Source: Deltaproteobacteria bacterium
GTDB taxonomy: Bacteria > Myxococcota > Myxococcia > SLRQ01
DNA: 64,000 bases
Direction: 5' to 3'
Assembly (NCBI GenBank): GCA_029210625.1
Contig: JARGFU010000018.1
Coordinates: 1-64,000 of the forward strand
Shown piece by piece: positions 7,362-15,684 of this stretch (position 1 is its first letter; each line of letters begins with the position of its first letter). The translations under genes and the position numbers were made by a program. Below the pieces are notes generated by a model. The model was not told the origin of the DNA. It made no database searches and saw nothing but the letters and a program-made list of their open reading frames with translations.

Positions 7362-10300
7362 ATGCCCCCCCGTCTCCGGAGCCTGCTGAAGGCGTTCAGT
7401 CTCGTCCTCCTCCTGCTGCCGGGGGCGGCCCGGGCCTGGACGCCCTTCGCGACCTGCGGTGCCACCGACAGCCACTGGAGCACCCTCCCGGTGTCCTACC
7501 GGATCCACCAGGCGGGCTCGGCCGACCTCCCCTTCGCCACCGCCGAGGCCCGCATCGCCGACGCCTGGGCCGAGTGGGCGCGGCCCTGCTGCAGCGACTG
7601 GTCGGTGAGCTACGGCGGGACCACCACCGTGCGGGCCAACGACTCGTCTCCCCTCCACGTCCTCTCCTGGGAGGAGAACAGCTGGCCCAGCTCGCTGGGC
7701 AACGTGAACTCCACCATCGGCGTGGCGATGATGGTCTACGGGATGGGCTGCGAGTTCTCGGGCGGGGACATCCTCTTCAACGGCGTGGGCTTCATCTGGA
7801 CCGACGGCAGCCCCGGCCTGGGCGGCCGCGTCGATCTCCAGAGCATCGCCACCCACGAGGGCGGCCACTTCCTGGGGCTGGGCCACACCAACGTGTCGGC
7901 GGCCACGATGTACCCGGTCTACGACAACGGGATCGCCCAGCGCAGCCTGGACGCCGACGACGAGGCCGGGGTCTGCAGCCTCTACAACCGCAGCTGCGGT
8001 GAGATCGCGTGCGAGAACGGCGTAGACGACGACGGCGACGGCGCCACCGACTGCGTGGACTCCGACTGCAACGGCCGGGCCTGCGACGGCCTCGGGCGCA
8101 CCTGCAGCGGCGGCGCCTGCGTCTGCCCGGGCGGCGGCACGGAGGCCGCCTGTACCGACGGCCTCGACGAGGACTGCGACGGGCTGACCGACTGCGCCGA
8201 CGCCAACTGCGACGGCGCCTCCTGCGGCAGCGGCGCCCTCTGCCAGGGCGGCGTCTGCAACTGCCCGGGCGGCGAGACGAGCGAGAGCTCCTGCGGCGAC
8301 GGCGCCGACAACGACTGCGACGGCTTCACCGACTGCCTGGACAACGACTGCACCGGGGTGACCTGCGCCGCGAACGGGAGGTGGTGCTCGGGCGGCGCCT
8401 GCGTCTGCTCCTGGGGCGAGACCGCCGAGTCGAACTGCGTCGATACGGTGGACACGGACTGCGACGGCTTCACGGACTGCGCCGACAGCGACTGCGCGGG
8501 CGTGAGCTGCGGAGGCGGGGGCGCCACCTGCACCGGCGGGGTCTGCGACTGCCCCGGAGGCGAGGCCACCGAGACGACCTGCGGCGACGGGCAGGACAAC
8601 GACTGCGACGGCTGGCCCGACTGCCAGGACAACGACTGCCTCGGCGTGACCTGCGGCCCCTTCGGGGTCTGGTGCTCGGGGGGCGCCTGCGTCTGCTCCT
8701 GGGGCGAGACCAGCGAGTCCTCCTGCGGCGACGGCATCGACTCGGACTGTGACGGCGCCACCGACTGCCAGGACACCGACTGCGCCGAGGGCGCGGTCTG
8801 CGGGGCCAACGGCCGGGTCTGCGCCGGCGGCGCCTGCGTCTGTCCGGGGGGCGCCTCGCCCGAGATCGACTGCGGCAACGGCGTCGACGACGACTGCGAC
8901 GGCGCCCGGGACTGCCTCGATGCGGACTGCGGCGGTGAGACCTGCGGCGCCAACGGCCGCTGGTGCTCGGGCGGCAGCTGCGCCTGCCCCTGGGGCGAGA
9001 GCTTCGAGTCGAGCTGCAGCGACGGCATCGACTCGGACTGCGATGGCTACACCGACTGCGACGACACGAACTGCAGCGGCCAGGCCTGCGCGGCCAACGG
9101 CTGGATCTGCTCGAGCGGCCTCTGCGTCTGCCCGGGCGGGCAGAGCAACGAGACCTCCTGCACCGGCGGCGGCGACGAGGACTGCGACGGGCTCGTCGAC
9201 TGCGCCGATCCCGACTGCGACGCCCTCGGCTGCGGCGACGAGGGGCAGGTCTGCAGCGGGGGCGCCTGCACCTGCAGCGGCGGGGAGGCCAGCGAGGTGT
9301 CCTGCTTTGACGGCAGCGACAACGACTGCGACGGCGCCACCGACTGCGTGGACGGCGACTGCCTGGGCCAGGCCTGCGGCGCCAACGGGCGGGTCTGCAG
9401 CGGCGTCTCCTGCGTCTGCCCCGGGGGCGAGCCCACCGAGGCGAGCTGCGACGACTCGGCCGACAACGACTGCGACGGCCTCGTCGACTGCGCCGATCCC
9501 CACTGCGACCTCGGCGCCTGCGGCGCGAACGGCCGGGTCTGCCTCGGCGGCGCCTGCGCCTGCCCCGGGGGCCAGGCCAGCGAGACCTCCTGCGGAGACG
9601 GCAGCGACAACGACTGCGACGGCGCCGTCGACTGCGCCGACCCCGACTGCCAGGCGGCCGCCTGCGGGCCCAACGGCCGGGTCTGCGCCGCCGGCGTCTG
9701 CGGCTGCCCGGGCGGCGAGGCCCAGGAGCAGAGCTGCGACAACGGCCTGGACGACGACTGCGACGGCGCCACCGACTGCGCCGACCCCGACTGCAACACC
9801 GACCCCTGCGGCGCGAACGGCCGCCTCTGCGCCGGCCTCACCTGCGTCTGCCCCGGGGGCGAGGCCAGCGAGGTGAGCTGCTCCGGCGGCCTCGACGAGG
9901 ACTGCGACGGGCTCGTCGACTGCGCCGACCCCGACTGCACGGCGGCGACCTGCGGACCCAACGGCCGCACCTGCAGCGCCGGCGTCTGCAGCTGCCCCGC
10001 CGGCGAGCCCAGCGAGAGCTCCTGCGTCAACGCGGTGGACGACGACTGCGACGGCTTCACCGACTGCGCCGACTCCGAGTGCGGCGGCCTCGCCTGCGGG
10101 GCCAACGGCCTGACCTGCAGCGGCGGCGCCTGCGTCTGCCCCGGCGGCGAGGCCAACGAGACCGACTGCGGGGACGGCGTCGACTCCGACTGCGACGGCC
10201 TCACCGACTGCGCCGATCCCGGCTGCGGCGGCGTGGTCTGCGGCACCAACGGCCGGGTCTGCTCGGGCGGCGCCTGCGGCTGCCCCGGCGGTGAGGCCAC

Positions 10301-13300
10301 CGAGACCTCCTGCGGCGACGCCCAGGACAACGACTGCGACGGCGCCATCGACTGCCTCGACGCCGACTGCGGCGGCGCCGCCTGCGGGGCCAACGGCCGC
10401 ACCTGCAGCGGCTCGCTCTGCCTCTGCCCCGGCGGCGAGGCCAGCGAGAGCAGCTGCAGCGACGGCGCCGACAACGACTGCGACGGCGCCACCGACTGCC
10501 TCGACAGCGACTGCACCGGCGCCGTCTGCGGGGCGAACGACCTGGCCTGCGTGGGCGGGGCCTGCGTCTGCCGCTGGGGCGAGGCCAGCGAGAGCGACTG
10601 CGGCGACGGCATCGACTCCGACTGCGACGGCGCCACCGACTGCGCCGACCTCGCCGCCTGCGGCGGCCAGAGCTGCGGCGACCACGGCCGCCTCTGCTCG
10701 GGCGGCAGCTGCGTCTGCCCCGGGGGGGAGGCCACCGAGGTCACCTGCACCGGCGGCGGCGACGAGGACTGCGACGGCCTGGTCGACTGCTGGGATCCCG
10801 ACTGCGTCGGCACCTCGTGCGGACCCAACGGCCGGGAGTGCGTGGTGGGCGGCTGCGTCTGCGCCGGCGGCGAGGCCGCCGAGGCCACCTGCGGGGACGG
10901 CACCGACAACGACTGTGACGGCCTCACCGACTGCGCCGACTCGAACTGCATGGGGGACCCCTGCGGCCCGAACGGGATGGAGTGCCTCTCGGGCACCTGC
11001 AGCTGCCGCTGGGGAGAGACCGTCGAGAGCGACTGCGCCGACGGCATCGACTCCGACTGCGACGGCGCCACCGACTGCGACGACAGCGACTGCGGCGGAC
11101 AGGTCTGCGGCGCGGGCGGCCGGGTCTGCAGCGGCGCCACCTGCGTCTGCCCGGGTGGGCAGAGCGCGGAGACCACCTGCACCGGCGGCGGCGACGAGGA
11201 CTGCGACGGGGCCATCGACTGCGCCGACAGCGACTGCGCCGGCGCCGCCTGCGGCGTGAACGGCCGCCAGTGCATCGGGACCACCTGCCAGTGCCCGGGT
11301 CAGGAGGCCAGCGAGAGCACCTGCGACGACGGCACCGACAACGACTGCGACGGCACCACCGACTGCCTCGACAACGACTGCAACAACGACGCCTGCGGCG
11401 CCAACGGGATGCAGTGCTTCGGCACCGCCTGCCTCTGCCGCTGGGGCGAGACCGTCGAGAGCGACTGCGCCGACGGCATCGACTCGGACTGCGACGGCGC
11501 CACCGACTGCGACGACGGCGACTGCGGCGGTCAGGTCTGCGGCGCCGGCGGGAGGCTCTGCAGCGGCGCCACCTGCGTCTGCCCGGGCGGGCAGAGCGCG
11601 GAGGCCACCTGCACCGGCGGCGGCGACGAGGACTGCGACGGCGCCATCGACTGTGCCGACAGCGACTGCGCCGGCGCCGCCTGCGGCGTGAACGGCCGTC
11701 AGTGCATCGGGACGACCTGCCAGTGCCCCGGAGGAGAGGCCCTCGAGGCGACCTGCGGGGACGGCACCGACAACGACTGCGACGGCACCACCGACTGCCT
11801 CGACAACGACTGCAACAACGACGCCTGCGGCGCCAACGGGATGCAGTGCTTCGGCACCGCCTGCCTCTGCCGCTGGGGCGAGACCCTCGAGAGCGACTGC
11901 CTCGACGGCATCGACTCCGACTGCGACGGCCTGACCGACTGCGCGGACAGCGACTGCAACGGCGACAGCTGCGGCTCGGGCGGGCGGGTCTGCGCCGGAG
12001 GCGTCTGCTCCTGCCCCGGCGGCTCGAGCCTGGAGATCTTCTGCACCGACGGCGCCGACGACGACTGCGACGGCCTGACCGACTGCGCCGACCCCGACTG
12101 CGCCGGCCTCTCCTGCGGCCCCTTCGGCCTGCGCTGCATCACGGGTGCCTGCGCCTGCGGCGGGGGCGAGGCCAGCGAGGCCACCTGCGGCAACGGCGGG
12201 GACGACGACTGCGACGGCCTGACCGACTGCGCCGACCCCGACTGCAACGCCCGCAACTGCGGCCCCAACGGCCTCGCCTGCCTCGCCTCGGTCTGCGCCT
12301 GCCGGGGCGGCGAGGACCCCACCGAGCTCACCTGCGACGACGGCCAGGACAACGACTGCGACGGGCAGACCGACTGCACGGACGCCGACTGCAACGCCGC
12401 GGCCTGCGGGCCCTACGGCGAGCTCTGCTTCGGCGGCGCCTGCGCCTGCCCGGGCGGAGAGCCCCTCGAGCTCACCTGCACCGGCGGCGGCGACGAGGAC
12501 TGCGACGGCCTCGCCGACTGCGACGATCCGGACTGCGACGGCCTGGCCTGCGCCTCCGAGGGCGAGCTCTGCCTGGGCAGCAGCTGCCTCTGCCCGGGGC
12601 CGGCGAGCGAGAGCTCCTGCAGCGACGGGCTCGACGAGGACTGCGACGGCCTGACCGACTGCGCCGACGCCGAGTGCGCGGGCCTGGTCGAGTGCACCTG
12701 CACCCCGGTCGACACCTACGAGGTCTCCTGCGTCGACGGCCAGGACGACGACTGCGATGGAGCGGTCGACTGCCTCGACGCCGACTGCGACGGGGTGGAC
12801 TGCGACGCCCTCGGGCGCGCCTGCACTGGCCTGGCCTGCGCCTGCCCCGGCGGCAGCACCGAGGCCGACTGCTCGGATGGCTTCGACGAGGACTGCGACG
12901 GCCTGACCGACTGCTCCGACGCGGACTGCGCTGGCGCGGCCTGCGGGCTGCCGGGCGAGCTCTGCTTCGGCGGCGCCTGCGCCTGCGACACCGGCGAGAC
13001 CACCGAGGTCGACTGCGGCAACCTCGGCGACGACGACTGCGATCAGGCGGTGGACTGCGACGACCTCGACTGCGAGCTCGACCCCCTCTGCAACCCCACC
13101 GACGGCGGCATCCCCGATGGGGGCACCCCGGACGGCGGGGACGACGGCGGCCTCCCGGACTCCGGTCCGGACCCGGACGGCGGGGCTCCCGACGGCGGCG
13201 ACGACGGCGGCCTCACCGACAGTGGGATCCCGGACGGCGGTGGCGACGGTGGCGCGATCGACGGGGGCGAGCCCGACGGCGGCCTCCCCGACGCGAGTGA

Positions 13301-13433
13301 TCCGGACGCGGGTCCCGCCGACGGTGGTTCGGGCGAGGAGCCGGGCTGCGAGTGCGGCGCCACCGGGAGCGGGGCCGCCCTGGGCTGGCTGCTCCTGCCC
13401 CTCCTGCTGGTGCTGCGCCGGCGCCGGGACTAG
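7362..13433 (+). CDS. Giant secreted matrixin-type metalloprotease with 36 Cys-rich DCDG repeats and MYXO-CTERM tail
   Basis: The 2,023-residue exported protein has a signal peptide (about 1-25, ending ARA) and a metzincin-type catalytic domain (about 26-208). That domain carries the zinc motif HEGGHFLGLGH (H165, E166, H169, H175) and a downstream Met-turn (ATM at 181-183), as in M10A matrixins. Residues about 210-1910 are 36 repeats of about 47 residues built around D-x-DCDG-x-x-DC, CxxNGRxC and CxCPGGE. These resemble the MopE-type metal-binding motifs common in Myxococcota. A Pro/Asp/Gly linker (PDGG repeats) leads to CECGATGSGAALGWLLLPLLLVLRRRRD, a Cys-x-Cys, hydrophobic helix and Arg cluster typical of MYXO-CTERM surface sorting. 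It is probably a surface-anchored, Ca- or metal-loaded stalk that displays a protease. Confidence 0.93.
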   Translation: MPPRLRSLLKAFSLVLLLLPGAARAWTPFATCGATDSHWSTLPVSYRIHQAGSADLPFATAEARIADAWAEWARPCCSDWSVSYGGTTTVRANDSSPLHVLSWEENSWPSSLGNVNSTIGVAMMVYGMGCEFSGGDILFNGVGFIWTDGSPGLGGRVDLQSIATHEGGHFLGLGHTNVSAATMYPVYDNGIAQRSLDADDEAGVCSLYNRSCGEIACENGVDDDGDGATDCVDSDCNGRACDGLGRTCSGGACVCPGGGTEAACTDGLDEDCDGLTDCADANCDGASCGSGALCQGGVCNCPGGETSESSCGDGADNDCDGFTDCLDNDCTGVTCAANGRWCSGGACVCSWGETAESNCVDTVDTDCDGFTDCADSDCAGVSCGGGGATCTGGVCDCPGGEATETTCGDGQDNDCDGWPDCQDNDCLGVTCGPFGVWCSGGACVCSWGETSESSCGDGIDSDCDGATDCQDTDCAEGAVCGANGRVCAGGACVCPGGASPEIDCGNGVDDDCDGARDCLDADCGGETCGANGRWCSGGSCACPWGESFESSCSDGIDSDCDGYTDCDDTNCSGQACAANGWICSSGLCVCPGGQSNETSCTGGGDEDCDGLVDCADPDCDALGCGDEGQVCSGGACTCSGGEASEVSCFDGSDNDCDGATDCVDGDCLGQACGANGRVCSGVSCVCPGGEPTEASCDDSADNDCDGLVDCADPHCDLGACGANGRVCLGGACACPGGQASETSCGDGSDNDCDGAVDCADPDCQAAACGPNGRVCAAGVCGCPGGEAQEQSCDNGLDDDCDGATDCADPDCNTDPCGANGRLCAGLTCVCPGGEASEVSCSGGLDEDCDGLVDCADPDCTAATCGPNGRTCSAGVCSCPAGEPSESSCVNAVDDDCDGFTDCADSECGGLACGANGLTCSGGACVCPGGEANETDCGDGVDSDCDGLTDCADPGCGGVVCGTNGRVCSGGACGCPGGEATETSCGDAQDNDCDGAIDCLDADCGGAACGANGRTCSGSLCLCPGGEASESSCSDGADNDCDGATDCLDSDCTGAVCGANDLACVGGACVCRWGEASESDCGDGIDSDCDGATDCADLAACGGQSCGDHGRLCSGGSCVCPGGEATEVTCTGGGDEDCDGLVDCWDPDCVGTSCGPNGRECVVGGCVCAGGEAAEATCGDGTDNDCDGLTDCADSNCMGDPCGPNGMECLSGTCSCRWGETVESDCADGIDSDCDGATDCDDSDCGGQVCGAGGRVCSGATCVCPGGQSAETTCTGGGDEDCDGAIDCADSDCAGAACGVNGRQCIGTTCQCPGQEASESTCDDGTDNDCDGTTDCLDNDCNNDACGANGMQCFGTACLCRWGETVESDCADGIDSDCDGATDCDDGDCGGQVCGAGGRLCSGATCVCPGGQSAEATCTGGGDEDCDGAIDCADSDCAGAACGVNGRQCIGTTCQCPGGEALEATCGDGTDNDCDGTTDCLDNDCNNDACGANGMQCFGTACLCRWGETLESDCLDGIDSDCDGLTDCADSDCNGDSCGSGGRVCAGGVCSCPGGSSLEIFCTDGADDDCDGLTDCADPDCAGLSCGPFGLRCITGACACGGGEASEATCGNGGDDDCDGLTDCADPDCNARNCGPNGLACLASVCACRGGEDPTELTCDDGQDNDCDGQTDCTDADCNAAACGPYGELCFGGACACPGGEPLELTCTGGGDEDCDGLADCDDPDCDGLACASEGELCLGSSCLCPGPASESSCSDGLDEDCDGLTDCADAECAGLVECTCTPVDTYEVSCVDGQDDDCDGAVDCLDADCDGVDCDALGRACTGLACACPGGSTEADCSDGFDEDCDGLTDCSDADCAGAACGLPGELCFGGACACDTGETTEVDCGNLGDDDCDQAVDCDDLDCELDPLCNPTDGGIPDGGTPDGGDDGGLPDSGPDPDGGAPDGGDDGGLTDSGIPDGGGDGGAIDGGEPDGGLPDASDPDAGPADGGSGEEPGCECGATGSGAALGWLLLPLLLVLRRRRD
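7991..13092 (+). repeat. 36 tandem ~141-144 bp coding repeats (DCDG Cys-rich units)
   Basis: Units have the consensus C.DG.DNDCDG.TDCAD.DC.G..CG.NGR.CSGG.CVCPGGEASE.S and carry about nine Cys each. Thirty-six copies of the D-x-DCDG core were counted, the first degenerate (DDDGDG) and the last DCDQ. Units with CxWGE at the boundary are always followed by an IDSDCDG-type (once VDTDCDG) core, which marks subtypes within the array. Confidence 0.95.
11004..11867 (+). repeat. Two tandem 432-bp higher-order repeats (three units each)
   Basis: The segment 11004-11435 is repeated almost exactly at 11436-11867. Each 432 bases encode three 48-residue units of subtypes CRWGE-IDSDCDG, TGGGDEDCDG and DGTDNDCDG. 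An older copy of the same triplet starts near 10569, 435 bases upstream, and the first unit of a fourth starts at 11868. Confidence 0.9.
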
Positions 13434-13442
13434 CCTGCCGCC

Positions 13443-13781
13443 ATGCTCGAGCTCATCTGCAAGAAGACCTGAAGCACCTGTCGCAAGGCGGTCGCCTTGC
13501 TCGACGAGAAGAAGATCGCCTACCGCTACCGCGAGTACACCGAGGAGCCCCTCTCGGCCGAGGAGCTGAAGGCGGTCCTGGCCAAGCTGGGTCTGGGCCC
13601 GAAGGATCTCCTCCGGAAGAACGACAAGGCCTACAAGGAGCTGGGGCTGACCGGGAAGGAAGCGGACGGGAAGCTCATCAAGCTGATGGCCGAGCACCCC
13701 ACCCTGCTCCAGCGCCCCATCGGGGTGAAGGGCCGGAAAGCGGTGGTCGGCCGGCCCATCGAGAACCTGCTGGAGTTCTAG
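13443..13781 (+). CDS. ArsC/Spx-family redox protein with in-frame UGA (probable selenoprotein, UxxC)
   Basis: Reading through the TGA at 13470-13472 gives a 112-residue thioredoxin-fold protein of the ArsC/Spx family (COG1393). Residues 1-13 read MLELICKKT-U-STC. The UGA therefore takes the first position of the CxxC motif (U10, C13), the same numbering as the C10/C13 switch of Spx. The C-terminal half holds the family signature RPIGVKGRKAVVGRPIENLLEF. A hairpin with bacterial SECIS geometry lies immediately downstream of the UGA. The gene starts ten bases after the giant protease stop. Without readthrough, a start at TTG 13497 would delete the whole active site. Alternatives are a nonsense-inactivated gene or a sequence error. 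Likely role: a selenol-based reductase. Confidence 0.8.
13473..13505 (+). promoter_or_regulatory. Putative bacterial SECIS element
   Basis: Seventeen bases after the UGA comes a GGTC tetraloop (13490-13493) on a perfect 7-bp stem (GCAAGGC 13483-13489 with GCCTTGC 13494-13500). The stem can be extended by GTC/GAC across a 2-base bulge. The spacing and the G-G-U loop match the E. coli fdhF SECIS, whose loop also begins 17 bases after UGA and contains GGU. SelB would bind here to insert selenocysteine. Confidence 0.7.
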
Positions 13782-15171: not shown

Positions 15172-15684
15172 ATGACGACTCAGCTCGACTTCACCACCCT
15201 GGATCTGCAAGACGCCCTCGACCTCGCCATCCTCATCGAGAAGGAGGCCGAGGAGCGCTACACCCAGTTCGCGACGATGCTCGGCGCCACCGACGGCGCG
15301 GAGATCTTCGAGAAGATGTCCCGCAACGAGAAGGCGCACGGTGACGAGCTCCGCGCGAGGCGGGAGAAGCTCTTCGGCGACGCCCCCTCGCGGATGCACG
15401 AGGACATGATCCAGGACGTCGAGGCCCCGGACATGCACCAGCCCAGCCACGGGATGTCGGTGCGGGCCGCCCTCGAGGTCGCCATGAGGTCGGAGAAGAA
15501 GGCCCACGACTTCTTCGCCGCCGCCCTGCCGAGCATCGAGGACGCCGAGGTGAAGGCCCTCTTCGAGGAGCTGCGCGACGAGGAGATCGAGCACCAGCAG
15601 CTGCTCGAGGAGCAGATGGGCCGCTACCCCGAGACCCTCGAGCCGGACATCGACCCCGACTCGGTCGAGACCCCCGCGCTCTAG
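15172..15684 (+). CDS. Ferritin-like di-iron (rubrerythrin-type) protein
   Basis: The 170-residue protein is a predicted four-helix bundle with two pairs of metal-binding motifs: EKEAEERY (about 23-30) and EKAHGDEL in the first half, EKKAHDFF and DEEIEHQQLLEE in the second. These match rubrerythrin/ferritin-like Glu and ExxH ligands of a di-iron site. There is no rubredoxin domain, so it is the erythrin-only form. Such proteins store iron or reduce peroxide in the cytoplasm. It starts 38 bases after the M20 gene with AGGAA upstream of the ATG and may be cotranscribed with it. Confidence 0.85.
   Translation: MTTQLDFTTLDLQDALDLAILIEKEAEERYTQFATMLGATDGAEIFEKMSRNEKAHGDELRARREKLFGDAPSRMHEDMIQDVEAPDMHQPSHGMSVRAALEVAMRSEKKAHDFFAAALPSIEDAEVKALFEELRDEEIEHQQLLEEQMGRYPETLEPDIDPDSVETPAL

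Follow-up and report, generated by a model that had tools for sequence, protein, structure and literature searches.

A putative selenocysteine-containing ArsC-type reductase with a conserved SECIS hairpin in uncultured bacteria labelled Myxococcota and Acidobacteriota

In this study, we conclude from comparative sequence analysis that selenocysteine (Sec) is very probably inserted at codon 10 of a reductase with the ArsC fold, which is encoded in the window, that is, in the whole 64,000-nucleotide stretch of DNA analysed here. An earlier note on this DNA had proposed that the UGA at this codon is decoded as Sec, and the proposal is now supported by the Sec machinery of the genome, by 48 clade members with TGA at the same place and by a covarying hairpin. 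The features of the gene are located as follows:

13443..13781, + strand: gene for the 112-aa Sec-ArsC protein, containing a single in-frame TGA (from frame reading, PF03960 and orthologues)
13458..13460, + strand: Cys6, at the position of His8 in R773 ArsC; invariant in the clade (the pattern used to collect orthologues required Cys6; 4 others, read by coordinates, also have Cys6)
13470..13472, + strand: UGA codon 10, predicted to be read as selenocysteine, at the catalytic position; 48 clade members have TGA here and 2 have TGC
13479..13481, + strand: Cys13, found in every clade member and proposed to act as the resolving thiol in U10-x-x-C13
13483..13500, + strand: upper hairpin of a predicted bacterial SECIS element, GCAAGGC-GGUC-GCCUUGC, with its loop 17 nt after the UGA (from folding, covariation and TGA scan)
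13479..13512, + strand: likely full SECIS region, the lower part of which, a bulged stem of UGUC with GACG, is predicted for the window and for only some of the orthologues
13614..13616, + strand: Arg58, equivalent to Arg60 of R773 ArsC; invariant in a 29-row alignment
13713..13715, + strand: Arg91, equivalent to Arg94 of R773 ArsC; invariant in the 29-row alignment
13752..13754, + strand: Arg104, equivalent to Arg107 of R773 ArsC; invariant in the 29-row alignment

The gene begins with ATG at 13443 and ends with a TAG stop at 13779-13781, and with TGA translated as U its product is MLELICKKTUSTCRKAV...GRPIENLLEF. The earlier note had described an ArsC/Spx-type gene with TGA at codon 10, and its coordinates and frame were reproduced. 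The frame beyond the TGA does encode a complete family protein, as claimed, with a match to Pfam ArsC (PF03960; E 3.4e-18, 66.2 bits, above the gathering cut-off of 24). In alignments, U10 stands opposite C12 of ArsC from plasmid R773 (residues 8-110 of the query against 10-113 of the chain) and opposite C10 of Spx, which bears out the placing of the TGA at the first Cys of the CxxC motif. On the upstream side, positions 7362-13433 encode a 2023-aa matrixin-domain protein with dozens of Cys-rich repeats (CGDGxDNDCDGxxDCxDxDC) and a hydrophobic, Arg-ended C-terminal tail that looks like MYXO-CTERM; 9 nt separate its end from the Sec gene, and the long open frames in other frames over it look like a by-product of the repeats. 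A rubrerythrin-family gene lies at 15172-15684, 1.4 kb downstream of the Sec gene, and no conservation of this linkage was seen in relatives.

The genome that contains the window (6.11 Mb, 98% complete) possesses the Sec machinery, the absence of which had been named as evidence against Sec. It holds a tRNA-Sec (67.5 bits, over the cut-off, and also called as tRNA-SeC by ARAGORN) together with SelA (461 bits), SelB (292 bits) and SelD (382 bits), all over their curated cut-offs. SelD (L070, contig C1:67334-68257, minus strand) itself has an in-frame TGA, in the motif HGAG-U-ACK, and the hairpin predicted after that UGA has a loop other than GGUC.

A GGUC loop 17 bases after the UGA, on a perfect 7-bp stem, had been noticed from the letters alone and was confirmed by position, with stem arms at 13483-13489 (GCAAGGC) and 13494-13500 (GCCTTGC) and the loop GGTC at 13490-13493. 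The 43 nt from the TGA are predicted to fold into exactly this hairpin plus the bulged lower stem (-14.8 kcal/mol). For a longer stretch of 71 nt another fold was preferred, and no significant structure was found (z -0.85). Folding energy by itself would not have convinced us, and the comparative evidence supersedes it. The published bSECIS model describes a loop of 3-9 nt with a G in the first two loop positions, a stem of 4-16 bp, a distance of 16-37 nt from the UGA and a minimum free energy of at most -7.5 kcal/mol (PMC13188914). With a 4-nt GGUC loop, a 7-bp stem, a distance of 17 nt and -14.8 kcal/mol, the window hairpin passes this check, which had been suggested beforehand, though the model in a relaxed form (6 or more pairs, G-U allowed, 16-37 nt) accepts 284 of 999 TGA triplets, so that the model alone is weak evidence. 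Under a strict definition (7 or more Watson-Crick pairs closing a loop of 3-6 nt that has G in its first two positions and lies 16-18 nt from the TGA), 1 of the 999 TGA triplets counted over the two strands of the window was retained.

Orthologues were searched for with the protein or a profile in whole genomes and GTDB contigs, and the members read base by base, the window included, comprise 48 with TGA and 2 with TGC; the question raised earlier, whether Cys replaces the UGA elsewhere, is thus answered by these two orthologues. Of 379 genomes in a phylum sample centred on the Myxococcales genome G198, 33 gave matches above 125 bits (32 with one TGA, 1 with TGC), and the clade is sharply separated, the next match below it having 106 bits and no TGA. 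A clade gene was present in 13 of 396 genomes sampled around the Acidobacteriota-labelled genome G200, always with TGA, and among 195 genomes of the window's own GTDB phylum it occurred in the window genome and G182 (TGA) and in G017 (TGC). Most carriers are metagenome-assembled genomes under submitter names, and their taxonomy is approximate; the clade spans groups labelled Myxococcota and Acidobacteriota, that is, uncultured bacteria of at least two phyla. Wider ArsC relatives mostly have Cys at the catalytic position. A first check detected tRNA-Sec in each of its eight TGA-bearing genomes, and it was also found in 33 of 40 further TGA carriers, compared with 22 of 40 non-carriers (p 0.015). 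No tRNA-Sec was found in the other 7 of these 40 carriers, where a stricter filter, used above 40 genomes, was applied; incomplete assemblies together with this filter are the probable cause. The TGC genome G196 has a tRNA-Sec, and in the TGC genome G017 (75% complete) none was found over the cut-off.

Comparison of the members indicates that the hairpin is under selection as RNA. All seven stem pairs are formed in 44 of the 48 TGA members and at least six in 47 of 48, the exception being L141, where the hairpin appears slightly shifted. Across 18 TGA members, pairing holds in 99.3% of stem cells, and both sides have changed at three of the pairs; for these 18 sequences, 0 of 500 shuffles reached the observed pairing or double-change value, and pairing fell to 27-55% when the partner was slid by one to three columns. 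Synonymous double changes were observed from AAG/GCC to AAA/GCT (L055, L132 and L157) and from CGC/TTG to CGT/TTA (L079), and the loop-closing G-C has become C-G in L054 and L056 and A-U in L084. Of 44 parsed Sec genes, 43 have TTR at codon 19, compared with 86 of 689 Leu codons elsewhere in these genes (p 2e-34, uncorrected for relatedness), and synonymous differences occur at a rate of 0.19 within the hairpin codons 13-19 and of 0.50 across codons 21-57. Both TGC orthologues have CTG at codon 19 and a stem broken synonymously (5/7 and 6/7 pairs), which is the pattern expected of a SECIS element decaying once Cys replaces Sec.

The two TGC members (L048 and L049) are found at different places inside a 44-row clade (42 Sec, 2 Cys). 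Two Sec/Cys changes were counted on this tree, also across the bootstrap range, and well-supported branches force only one. Because the TGC members are nested at separate places, Sec-to-Cys reversal, perhaps twice, is more probable than that the identical hairpin was gained repeatedly. A minimum of eight Sec/Cys switches is forced by well-supported branches of the wider tree, which includes the second Sec lineage described below, with its different RNA context. Documented Sec-to-Cys reversals concern mainly FdhA and SelD (2026 review, PMC13188914), and the clade adds probable reversals outside these two. A second Sec-ArsC lineage was encountered in the Acidobacteriota sample (L096-L098 and L103-L114; 15 TGA genes with the motif YEKPTU[ST][TK]CR and alike). 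It belongs to the same family and has Sec at the same position, but lies on separate branches interspersed with close Cys homologues, and the GGUC hairpin of the window clade was absent from it at the 17-nt spacing.

Other readings of the TGA were weighed against Sec insertion. If the gene were a pseudogene with a real stop, or if TGC or TGT had been misread as TGA, the TGC in two orthologues would fit, but 47 genes in other assemblies carry the same TGA, the protein being conserved beyond it and the hairpin covarying; this barely conceivable reading is refuted by the orthologues and was rejected. The same 47 orthologues speak against the possibility, raised in the earlier note, that resequencing might reveal TGC or TGT at this codon. 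Reassignment of TGA throughout the genome, for example to Trp or Gly, or readthrough without Sec, deserves hardly any credence. No support for genome-wide reassignment was found; three of the five genes neighbouring the Sec-ArsC gene stop with TGA, the replacement codon is TGC and never TGG or GGN, and tRNA-Sec, SelA, SelB and SelD are present. Translation from TTG 13497 (codon 19) would yield a 94-aa protein without the active site, and this is the entry in the standard-code ORF list of the window, just as had been foreseen for automatic annotation. As a true start it is very improbable: conservation of codons 2-9 and of Cys6 extends through the whole clade, both Cys orthologues included, and a good ribosome-binding sequence (GAGGAGG) lies upstream of the conserved ATG in G182/L051.

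With Sec at codon 10 as the preferred reading, the protein resembles glutaredoxin-type ArsC more closely than Spx, so that of the "ArsC/Spx" family named at the outset the first half stood and the second did not (95 against 68 bits, third Arg kept, best superposition on arsenate reductases). The nearest NCBIfam model is that of glutaredoxin-dependent ArsC (TIGR00014), which gave 95.4 bits for the window protein and 86-100 bits for three orthologues, all below its cut-off of 106. Spx/MgsR (TIGR01617) gave 68 bits, below the cut-off of 75, and the YffB model also scored lower than TIGR00014. The model for ArsC family (seleno)protein (NF041106, cut-off 85) did not list the window protein at E 0.001; it gave 20.2 bits in P0002 and matched only 4 of 9 clade members, with a best E of 0.00017. 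The tested clade members fall outside every named NCBIfam model at cut-off. Since no such model catches the clade over its cut-off, automatic annotation probably places the start of these genes after the UGA, with loss of the active site. In the tree, the clade is placed on a 100/99 branch beside CxxS ArsC, with a joint branch of 97/93 (37 rows). The predicted structure has the thioredoxin-like fold of ArsC (pLDDT 95.6; Foldseek E 8e-11 to 3rdw), with TM 0.91-0.92 to arsenate reductases (0.92 to 1jzw) against 0.81-0.87 to Spx. Another ArsC-family gene in the genome (L124 1489-1875, minus strand, contig C39) is a Cys form (GCSTCKKA) without the third Arg and is YffB/Spx-like.

Arsenic resistance by ArsC needs Arg60, Arg94 and Arg107 and the catalytic residue (PMC5155266), and in the clade the catalytic position is invariant alongside the equivalent Arg triad. 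R773 ArsC (PDB 1i9d, 1jzw) resembles the window protein in fold, in catalytic position and in these arginines (Arg58/91/104 here), but has Cys12, CxxS and His8 where the window protein has Sec10, UxxC and Cys6, and the window gene is outside any ars operon. Spx (PDB 1z3e, 3gfk) shares the fold (TM 0.81-0.87) and the CxxC position but is without the third Arg of the triad, at the alignment end, whereas the window protein has all three.

ArsC-like selenoproteins have been predicted in deltaproteobacteria (PMC1794560), and UxxS and UxxC forms were reported from ocean samples (PMC2398784) and relisted in 2022 and 2026 (PMC9312934; PMC13188914). One predicted selenoprotein is the "Arsenate reductase-like protein" of COG1393/NF041106 with UxxC (PMC9312934 Table 1; PMC13188914), which is probably the same as "Arsenate reductase 2, cd03032, UxxC", represented by 42 GOS sequences (PMC2398784). 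Like the window protein, this family is of ArsC type, has Sec first in a CxxC-type motif and is known from surveys only; unlike it, the window clade gives about 20 bits or no match to NF041106, has TIGR00014 as its nearest model and keeps all three arginines of the triad. The other is "Arsenate reductase", TIGR00014, with UxxS (PMC13188914; PMC2398784, as "Arsenate reductase 1 UxxS"), which shares the nearest NCBIfam model and Sec at the catalytic Cys; the window clade differs from it in having UxxC with its own resolving Cys, Cys6 at the His8 position and scores below the cut-off. The window gene is of an established predicted kind, but its subfamily is unmatched by the models cited in the 2026 review; some of the ocean UxxC sequences may belong to it.

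We propose the following course for Sec insertion and catalysis. SelB with Sec-tRNA would bind the hairpin directly after codon 10, and UGA would be translated as Sec and not as termination. This step has strong support from the sequence comparison, and of all the readings of the TGA weighed above, SECIS-dependent decoding is the one that survives. The pocket of Arg58, Arg91 and Arg104 may hold an oxyanion, probably arsenate, which the Sec10 selenolate would attack; Cys13 would resolve the adduct as an intramolecular Sec10-Cys13 selenenylsulfide, and thioredoxin or glutaredoxin might reduce it. In this the window protein would act as an arsenate reductase does, but, unlike CxxS ArsC, it would not require a mixed disulfide with glutathione. 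Cys6, which occupies the His8 position, may take part in the redox cycle or modulate it.

The substrate is probably, with modest confidence, arsenate or a similar oxyanion, and arsenate is the best guess because of the arginine pocket. No ars genes were found beside the Sec-ArsC gene in the window, and none by inspection in the conserved neighbourhoods of clade genes; the neighbours shared beyond close relatives (L052/L053, L054/L056) are single ones only (L054 with L080 and L083; L075 with L077). On the same contig (C18), about 108 kb away, acr3 stands adjacent to a thioredoxin-type ArsC (L126 4855-6362, minus strand; ~120.9-122.4 kb), which by inspection is of the low-molecular-weight-phosphatase type, with the motif CVANSARS. 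This acr3-arsC pair is likely the routine arsenic detoxification route, and since it is separate, arsenic detoxification need not be the main job of Sec-ArsC. A less probable but still appreciable alternative, which leaves Sec insertion unchanged, is that arsenate is not reduced and that the product is a redox protein of another sort, either a Sec-containing thiol:disulfide one (glutaredoxin- or thioredoxin-like) or one akin to Spx/YffB. The UxxC motif, as in Grx/Trx and Spx, agrees with it, as do a match of the product to Pfam Glutaredoxin (E 3.8e-7), the want of an ars neighbourhood, the separate acr3 and Trx-type ArsC, and the rubrerythrin gene downstream. It is opposed by the invariance of all three arsenate-binding arginines needed for resistance in ArsC, by the nearest tree relatives being CxxS ArsC and by the lower scores of the Spx and YffB models.

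Arsenate or oxyanion reduction being the reading that we favour, a further tentative suggestion from these sequences, on which we would not insist, is that the clade is an undescribed, almost always Sec-dependent ArsC subfamily in Myxococcota- and Acidobacteriota-labelled groups. Its three-chalcogen site, Cys6-x3-Sec10-x2-Cys13 in the Arg pocket, might serve a job other than routine arsenate detoxification, acting for example on another oxyanion, a specific protein or a persulfide.

Predictions of ArsC-type selenoproteins go back about two decades, and no enzymology is reported for them in the surveys and reviews that we found. The earlier remark that such proteins are known only from surveys agrees with this literature, and in open-licence literature no Sec-ArsC enzymology or Myxococcota selenoproteomes were found. 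Furthermore, the clade offers 48 natural Sec forms and 2 natural Cys forms on a well-studied enzyme frame, which makes the benefit of Sec in an arsenate-reductase site directly testable.
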